A DNA stretch of 64,000 bases from Pandoraea communis (lineage in GTDB: Bacteria > Pseudomonadota > Gammaproteobacteria > Burkholderiales > Burkholderiaceae), in assembly GCF_902459745.1 (NCBI RefSeq), contig NZ_CABPSJ010000006.1, forward strand, positions 327,245-391,244, given 5' to 3'. This document shows, piece after piece, positions 26,187 to 27,395 of this stretch. The notes under the pieces are model-generated. The model did not search any database, had not been told where the DNA came from, and saw only the letters and a list, made by a program, of their open reading frames with translations. The position numbers and the translations under genes are program-made. Each line of letters opens with the position of its first letter. Position 1 is the first letter of the stretch.

Positions 26187-27395
26187 TTAGTCTTCAATCT
26201 TGGCAACGACGCCGGCGCCGACGGTACGGCCACCTTCGCGAATTGCAAAACGCAGACCTTCTTCCATGGCGATCGGCTGAATCAGGCTAACCTGGATCGA
26301 CACGTTGTCGCCCGGCATGACCATTTCCTTGTCCGCCGGCAGGGCGATCGAACCGGTCACGTCCGTCGTACGGAAGTAGAACTGCGGACGGTAGTTGTTG
26401 AAGAACGGGGTGTGACGGCCACCTTCGTCCTTCGACAGAATGTAGACCTCGCCTGAGAACTTGCGGTGCGGCTTGATCGTGCCCGGCTTGGCCAGAACCT
26501 GACCACGCTGGACATCTTCACGCTTCGTGCCGCGCAGCAGAATACCGACGTTGTCGCCTGCCTGACCTTGGTCGAGCAGCTTGCGGAACATTTCCACGCC
26601 CGTGCAAGTCGTCTTGTCGATCTTCGGCTTGTCGCCGTCCATGGCGATACCAACGATTTCGATTTCTTCGCCGACCTTGATGATGCCGCGCTCGATACGA
26701 CCGGTCACCACGGTGCCACGGCCCGAGATCGAGAACACGTCTTCCACCGGCATCAGGAACGTGCCGTCAATTGCGCGTTCCGGCGTCGGGATGTACGTAT
26801 CGAGAGCGTCAGCCAGCTTCATGATGGCTTCTTCGCCCAGCGGGCCCTTGTCGCCTTCGAGCGCCAGTTTGGCCGAACCGTGGATGATCGGCACGTCGTC
26901 GCCCGGGAACTCGTACTTCGACAGAAGTTCGCGAACTTCCATTTCGACCAGCTCGAGCAGCTCGGCGTCGTCGACCATGTCGCACTTGTTCAGGAACACG
27001 ATGATGTACGGCACGCCAACCTGACGGGCCAACAGGATGTGCTCACGCGTTTGCGGCATCGGGCCGTCAGCGGCCGAGCAAACCAGGATAGCGCCGTCCA
27101 TCTGGGCAGCACCGGTAATCATGTTCTTGACGTAGTCGGCGTGGCCCGGGCAGTCAACGTGTGCGTAGTGGCGAGCGGCCGTTTCGTACTCGATGTGCGC
27201 GGTGTTGATGGTAATACCGCGTGCCTTTTCTTCCGGTGCTGCGTCGATTTCGTCGTACTTCTTGGCCTGACCGCCGAACTTCGACGACAGAACCGTTGCG
27301 ATAGCAGCCGTCAGCGTGGTCTTGCCGTGGTCAACGTGACCAATGGTGCCAACGTTCACGTGCGGCTTAGTCCGCTCGAATTTTTCCTTTGCCAT
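26187..27395 (-). CDS. tuf: elongation factor EF-Tu, 402-residue variant
   Basis: Delivers aminoacyl-tRNA to the ribosomal A site. The G domain has the P-loop GHVDHGKTT (about 19-27), DCPGH and NKCD motifs; domains II and III follow. Residues 1-175 differ from the second copy (60994-62184) at one position only, but the remainder differs at many. Residues ~250-264 read [18 protein letters not shown], six residues longer than the 396-residue copy. Kirromycin-site motifs look ordinary. The gene lies between fusA and rpsJ in the str operon; the DNA of the 5' ~500 bases is nearly identical to the other copy, which suggests gene conversion limited to that half. Confidence 0.97.

Follow-up and report, generated by a model that had tools for sequence, protein, structure and literature searches.

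A partly homogenised pair of EF-Tu genes, one with a six-residue insert in domain II, recurs in Pandoraea and a second genus

Two different genes for elongation factor EF-Tu (tuf) are present in the window, the 64,000-nucleotide stretch of Pandoraea communis DNA analysed here, which belongs to a genome of 5.7 Mb. The pair is a real and recurrent EF-Tu dimorphism that is partly homogenised and occurs in two genera, Pandoraea and a second genus, labelled g48 in this analysis, which is probably Ralstonia. One copy carries an insert in domain II (long copy), while the other does not (short copy). With modest confidence, a little above an even chance, we infer that the insert is an allele of the two genera whose tract was exchanged between them, and that it acts as a heterology barrier limiting gene conversion between the copies. 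No description of this pair could be found in the open-licence PubMed Central literature. The features of the window that bear on the pair were as follows.

26187..27395, minus strand: copy A of tuf, on the fusA side in the str operon, 402 aa, insert present; from the ORF and its translation, with Pfam EF-Tu domains 1–3
26616..26645, minus strand: insert-bearing loop of copy A, residues 251–260; from the codon alignment, net six residues relative to copy B
26916..27395, minus strand: codons 1–160 of copy A, nearly identical to copy B and taken as converted; 9 differences in 480 nt
60994..62184, minus strand: tuf copy B (tRNA-side), 396 aa, without the insert; from the ORF, translation and Pfam EF-Tu domains
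61705..62184, minus strand: codons 1–160 of copy B, the counterpart of that stretch; from the nucleotide comparison with copy A
27479..29581, minus strand: fusA (EF-G), control neighbour; from the ORF, Pfam EF-G domains and a control tree
62258..62600, minus strand: tRNA-Tyr, tRNA-Gly and tRNA-Thr, which lie upstream of copy B and identify the second locus; from ARAGORN
60854..60929, minus strand: tRNA-Trp downstream of copy B; from ARAGORN

Both tuf frames were intact and all three EF-Tu domains could be matched in each using Pfam, which also found S7, S12, rpoB, rpoC, EF-G and EF-Tu at the expected ORFs of the window. The EF-G gene (fusA) lies directly upstream of copy A and copy B is flanked by tRNA-Thr and tRNA-Trp; these fusA-side and tRNA-side positions are the two usual tuf loci of the Burkholderiales. 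Copy A could be aligned to solved EF-Tu from end to end, and both copies were full length with the invariant EF-Tu residues in place (Pfam and a 35-row alignment). The two proteins were approximately 92–93% identical, with 37 differing aligned positions when the insert is counted. The codon alignment revealed a net six-residue insert in domain II of copy A, at about nt 751–780 of tuf. An earlier note, made from the letters of this DNA, had reported two EF-Tu genes at these positions with a six-residue insertion in one of them, which the ORFs, Pfam and the codon alignment confirmed.

Differences between the copies were distributed unevenly along the gene. Residues 1–161 contained a single difference, A74N; residues 162, 168 and 172 also differed, making four differences in residues 1–175, so the single difference that the earlier note had extended to about residue 175 is correct only as far as residue 161. 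Its shared G domain likewise ends at about residue 161 and not at the domain end, as residues 185, 189 and 200 also differed within the Pfam match (10–203). At the nucleotide level the claimed near-identity of the 5' DNA was borne out, with 9 of 480 sites differing over codons 1–160 and zero differences at nt 223–485. The remainder was indeed different at many sites: after codon 160, 91 of 708 aligned sites differed, and near-identity over the whole gene was thus not found in the window pair.

Among examples of long-lasting concerted evolution, tuf is the best documented (PMC6053082). The earlier note had presumed that such pairs are usually homogenised over the whole gene, and the 12 complete pairs from other genera (g48 set aside) agreed with this, showing 0–7 differences in the 5' part and 0–9 in the 3' part. 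Within Pandoraea and g48, five of the six pairs in the same insert state were near-identical throughout, with 0–4 differences in the 3' part, while the pairs in different insert states differed at 29–91 of the 708 3' sites. The sixth same-state pair was G001, in which both copies are long and 35 of 726 3' sites differed; this may be either re-divergence after conversion or the presence of two long alleles. The two G001 copies (L120 and L121) carry different insert spellings, GIKTDGGKPVID and GIKMDGDKPHID.

Gene conversion within genomes was evaluated using the longest identical run between the copies over genus-variable sites, with 2000 permutations. In the window the longest run covered nt 228–486 and was equalled in 0 of 2000 permutations (p = 0.0005); such p values are rough because shuffling sites ignores uneven constraint. 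Ten of the 14 dimorphic Pandoraea genomes passed p ≤ 0.005, all with runs within nt 130–570, and the remaining four were G024 (0.0145), G018 (0.051), G012 (0.28) and G028 (0.59). For Pandoraea, this supports gene conversion acting mainly on the 5' part. In g48 only one of six dimorphic genomes passed the same threshold (G147, 0.003), while G168, G114 and G161 fell at 0.014–0.05, G106 at 0.081 and G078 at 0.43. The proposal of the earlier note that conversion was limited to the 5' half thus fits Pandoraea, but one simple event does not account for both genera.

The distribution of the two forms was assessed in a Pandoraea sample of 32 genomes, one of them of 1.2 Mb in six contigs. Nineteen complete pairs could be recovered, consisting of 14 that combine a long with a short copy, three with both copies long (G001, G007 and G020) and two with both copies short (G025, which is basal, and G027, a core genome). 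In g48, six of the seven complete pairs were dimorphic and the seventh (G181) was all-long. The long copy of a dimorphic pair was always on the fusA side (14 of 14 in Pandoraea, and likewise in g48). Judging from partial copies, G016, G019 and G022 appear dimorphic and G030 all-long, whereas G006 and G015 carry a short copy at the fusA side, the locus being judged by its flanks. A single short copy was recovered from the basal G029, and the partial copies of G014 were uninformative. No tuf match at E ≤ 1e-60 was obtained in five of 31 Pandoraea genomes (G002, G009, G010, G013 and G023), in which the repeats have presumably been collapsed in draft assemblies; homogenised pairs would be hidden in the same kind of assembly. 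An assembly artefact as the origin of the pair itself was rejected in view of the many genomes that show the arrangement, the single-contig G004, G012 and G026 among them. Three further tuf loci (L160 in G016, L166 in G029 and L197 in G187) combined the upstream flank of one locus with the downstream flank of the other. These draft contigs are probably assembly chimeras at the repeat and were therefore left out of the locus-order argument.

The spread of the insert was assessed with a 60-residue probe, to which long sequences scored at least 104.4 bits and short ones at most 82.0 bits (14 test sequences). The probe matched 33 of 398 genomes of the family in two of 25 genera, namely 21 Pandoraea and 12 g48 genomes; the insert was absent from the other 23 genera of this draw. 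Among the 32 Pandoraea genomes, 11 gave no insert match, five of these being the genomes from which no tuf was recovered. In the order (399), class (369) and phylum (398) samples, which like the family sample are draws and not complete sets, the insert was found only in the window's own genome. It was found in none of the 80 named tuf loci among the matches listed, from which near relatives may be missing.

The nucleotide sequence of the insert was compared between the two genera. The same 33 nt over the insert were present in nine of 20 long Pandoraea rows, including the window, and in nine of ten long g48 rows. When long copies were compared between the genera, the longest identical run covered the insert in 73 of 200 comparisons, and in the short-to-short comparisons it covered that site in 0 of 128; the 320 mixed comparisons cannot serve as a control, since a gap on one side interrupts the run. 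Identical 33-nt windows are themselves common in tuf (21–47 of 381 in six comparisons). Over the gene, copy A and a g48 long copy differed at 112 of 1206 sites; the corresponding figures were 141 of 1188 against the tuf of a genus labelled Cupriavidus-like in this analysis and 195 of 1188 against that of the basal same-genus G025.

Neighbouring genes gave a different grouping. The fusA, rpoB and rpoC trees (9–15 rows, two g48 genomes) placed g48 with the Cupriavidus-like group at 100/100 and not with Pandoraea, and in the 400 nt upstream of the fusA-side tuf the same two groups were split from all Pandoraea including G025 (99/98). In that upstream segment G106 (L182) had a long branch (0.2), unlike the other g48 genomes. 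Transfer together with neighbouring DNA was considered and rejected, as these trees separate the genera and the blocks between rpsL and rpoC do not match. An extra block of approximately 17 kb lies between rpsL and rpoC in the four core genomes compared (window 30900–48400) and is absent in G025; it encodes GntR/aminotransferase, HAD hydrolase, LysR, ApbA, LigB, aldehyde dehydrogenase and TonB receptor proteins. Two g48 genomes carry approximately 16 kb at the rpsL–rpoC junction, with no blastn match to the Pandoraea block.

The tuf trees were constructed from a set of 100 full-length rows, partial copies being left out, and from subsets of 73 and 48 rows. Codons 161–402 without the insert columns united core Pandoraea with g48 at 96/95 in the 73-row subset; with 48 rows the same group received only 86/26 and was unstarred. 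Codons 261–402 alone gave the group at 93/82. With codons 161–250 alone it was absent from the best tree, and holding it together gave p = 0.08. The AU test on codons 161–402 did not reject a clade of g48 with the Cupriavidus-like group (p = 0.22) and did not firmly reject the union of core and basal Pandoraea (p = 0.052). On codons 1–160, g48 with the Cupriavidus-like group was acceptable (p = 0.45), core Pandoraea with g48 was borderline (p = 0.05) and core with basal Pandoraea was rejected (p = 0.027); the 5' part therefore has oddities of its own. With the insert columns removed, the 105 columns of the block around the insert gave no resolved tree. The mosaic origin suggested in the earlier note thus gains from the insert being common to a second genus, with only moderate support from the trees. 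The insert tract was probably transferred horizontally, a conclusion drawn chiefly from where the insert occurs and from its sequence identity between the genera.

These data also bear on a vertical alternative, in which an ancient dimorphism predates the split of the genera and has been erased elsewhere by whole-gene conversion. Such erasure can be seen within both genera, and the AU result for the 3' part (p = 0.22) does not reject the vertical grouping. The absence of the insert from the 23 other genera of the family and from the basal G025 and G029 argues against it, as do the 33 nt common to both genera, though short identical stretches are frequent in tuf. We regard this alternative as quite improbable.

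In the reading that we favour, exchange of the tract followed by a barrier to conversion, the insert would have arisen once and its tract would have been exchanged between Pandoraea and g48, in either direction, through homologous recombination inside tuf. Where a genome is dimorphic, the insert together with the diverged sequence around it would then form a heterology barrier at which RecA-type conversion tracts would mostly stop or abort. The gene would behave as two conversion compartments, the larger 5' one being homogenised most strongly in its middle part, while domains II and III would drift apart under purifying selection. As the barrier would confine conversion mostly to the 5' side, the dimorphism would last until it is erased, and the pair reset, by an infrequent conversion of the whole gene in one direction or the other.

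A model for such tracts is available from Salmonella, where conversion tracts in tuf were reported to start anywhere and to extend approximately 500 nt each way, and, where a large insertion was present, remained on one side of it (PMC5485169). The Salmonella conversion model was computed with the gene undivided and with it split into two compartments, and compared with the observed profiles. For Pandoraea, the homogenisation profile gave a Pearson correlation of 0.09–0.13 with no barrier and 0.49–0.62 with a barrier at nt 750, the best fit being at 690–720; by Spearman correlation the best barrier was at nt 900 with 30-nt bins and at nt 720 with 45-nt bins. The g48 profile gave 0.22–0.32 (Pearson) with a barrier at nt 750 and 0.11–0.13 without. 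Shifted or reversed profiles performed equally well by Spearman in ten of 74 cases for Pandoraea and in 11 of 72 for g48, and the barrier fit is accordingly to be taken as suggestive. The insertion in the Salmonella tuf study is reportedly far larger than 18 nt.

Divergence between the loci was measured along the gene in windows, using 17 long and 14 short rows for Pandoraea and ten long and eight short rows for g48. In the g48 set, the between-locus distance was 0.9–4.3% in windows from column 61 to 240 and rose to 9–17% in windows 226–285 around the insert. It was 6–9% at 286–330, 9% at the C-terminal end and as low as 1–2% at 316–345 and 361–390, and reached 10–17% at columns 16–75. As divergence is low on both sides of the insert in g48, the barrier would be leaky there or the history differs. 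The within-genome distances of g48 were hardly below the between-genome distances, and homogenisation in this genus may therefore be old. The limitation of conversion to the 5' half fails to describe g48 for the same reasons: the insert block and columns 16–75 stay different, and divergence is low on either side of the insert. A second dimorphic block was observed in g48 at tuf residues 33–49 (e.g., L180 and L181), where residues 33, 37, 38, 43, 46 and 49 differed between the copies in all six dimorphic genomes. Both types of several of these sites could also be seen in other Burkholderiales.

Both tuf copies were under purifying selection, with dN/dS far below 1. Over codons 161–402 the value between Pandoraea species was 0.239 for the long copy and 0.111 for the short copy, while in g48 it was 0.033 for long and short copies alike. 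Residues 252–256 and 258–260 were the only ones that differed in all 20 dimorphic genomes; in Pandoraea, residues 311 and 368 also differed in 14 of 14. Mapped through the alignment, the insert stands in place of the loop at approximately residues 248–252 of the E. coli protein. In an AlphaFold model (mean pLDDT 68.4), the predicted strands 244–253 and 256–265 would make the insert a longer beta-hairpin tip, which is not reliable given ten-residue means of 30–61 over residues 201–300.

The main rival to the barrier reading is that selection keeps two EF-Tu isoforms with different functions and that converted cells are outcompeted. The difference between the isoforms would lie, equally tentatively, in the contact with ribosome or tRNA, in EF-Ts, in regulation or in a non-translational role. 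The persistence of the dimorphism in 20 of 26 complete pairs from two genera is in line with such selection, as are the residues of the insert region that alone differ in every dimorphic genome and the g48 insert block, which has been kept different while its flanks are similar between the loci. The faster evolution of the long copy in Pandoraea also fits and could reflect a new or a relaxed constraint; the dN/dS values far below 1 and the equal rates of the g48 copies point the other way. Genomes with only long copies (G001, G007, G020 and G181, and G030 by its partial copies), the all-short G027 within core Pandoraea, and the short copies at the fusA side of G006 and G015 also speak against a need for both isoforms. 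Taken together, selection for two isoforms is a tentative possibility, on balance doubtful. A combined reading, in which a tract of approximately 100 bp crossed between the genera and selection keeps both isoforms while conversion homogenises the flanks of the insert, we consider unlikely.

The earlier note had further suggested a resistant spare copy, the insertion abutting the TCTG motif near which changes giving resistance to GE2270-type thiopeptides are known. As weighed here, the insert would shield copy A from thiopeptides of the GE2270A type or from further antibiotics that target EF-Tu. The position of the insert suits this idea, as it ends, by the alignment mapping, six residues before the glycine at which a change confers GE2270A resistance in E. 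coli. Thirteen EF-Tu positions linked to resistance against elfamycins (kirromycin), GE2270A and pulvomycin were inspected; no resistance substitution was present at any of them in either copy or in the 100 sequences compared, all being wild type. Species in which every copy is short, as well as species in which every copy is long, were also found. Domain II is given as the binding site of GE2270A (PMC9529903), which again places the insert in a suitable domain. The resistant spare nevertheless appears highly improbable, and that suggestion gains no support.

Compared with known systems, the pair resembles proteobacterial tufA/tufB pairs as described (PMC6053082) in its two loci with their usual neighbours, in within-genome conversion and in the near-identical 5' part. 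It departs from those whole-gene homogenised pairs in that domains II and III differ and one copy bears an insert. As in the Salmonella tuf system (PMC5485169), the tracts lie within tuf and would be confined to one side of an insertion; that system was engineered with a large insertion, whereas here a natural 18-nt insert occurs in two genera. A second, non-homogenised EF-Tu in the same genome is also known from actEF-Tu, the Streptomyces tuf3 type (PMC4342817), which is described there as a subfamily of its own, with links to stress and antibiotic resistance in Streptomyces. Unlike actEF-Tu, both window copies are ordinary Burkholderiales EF-Tu at the identity given above, and membership of that type was not found, the copies sitting among Burkholderiales tuf rows in a tree built without actinobacterial sequences.

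Trees of these genera that rely on tuf may mislead, since separate segments of the gene may not share one history. The dimorphic, all-long and all-short genomes form a natural series in which it can be asked whether sequence heterology or selection stops conversion, and whether two distinct EF-Tu proteins can work side by side in one cell. If the combined reading with selection for both isoforms is true, cells would have carried two EF-Tu isoforms over much of the life of these genera, in contrast to the usual uniformity of tuf pairs.
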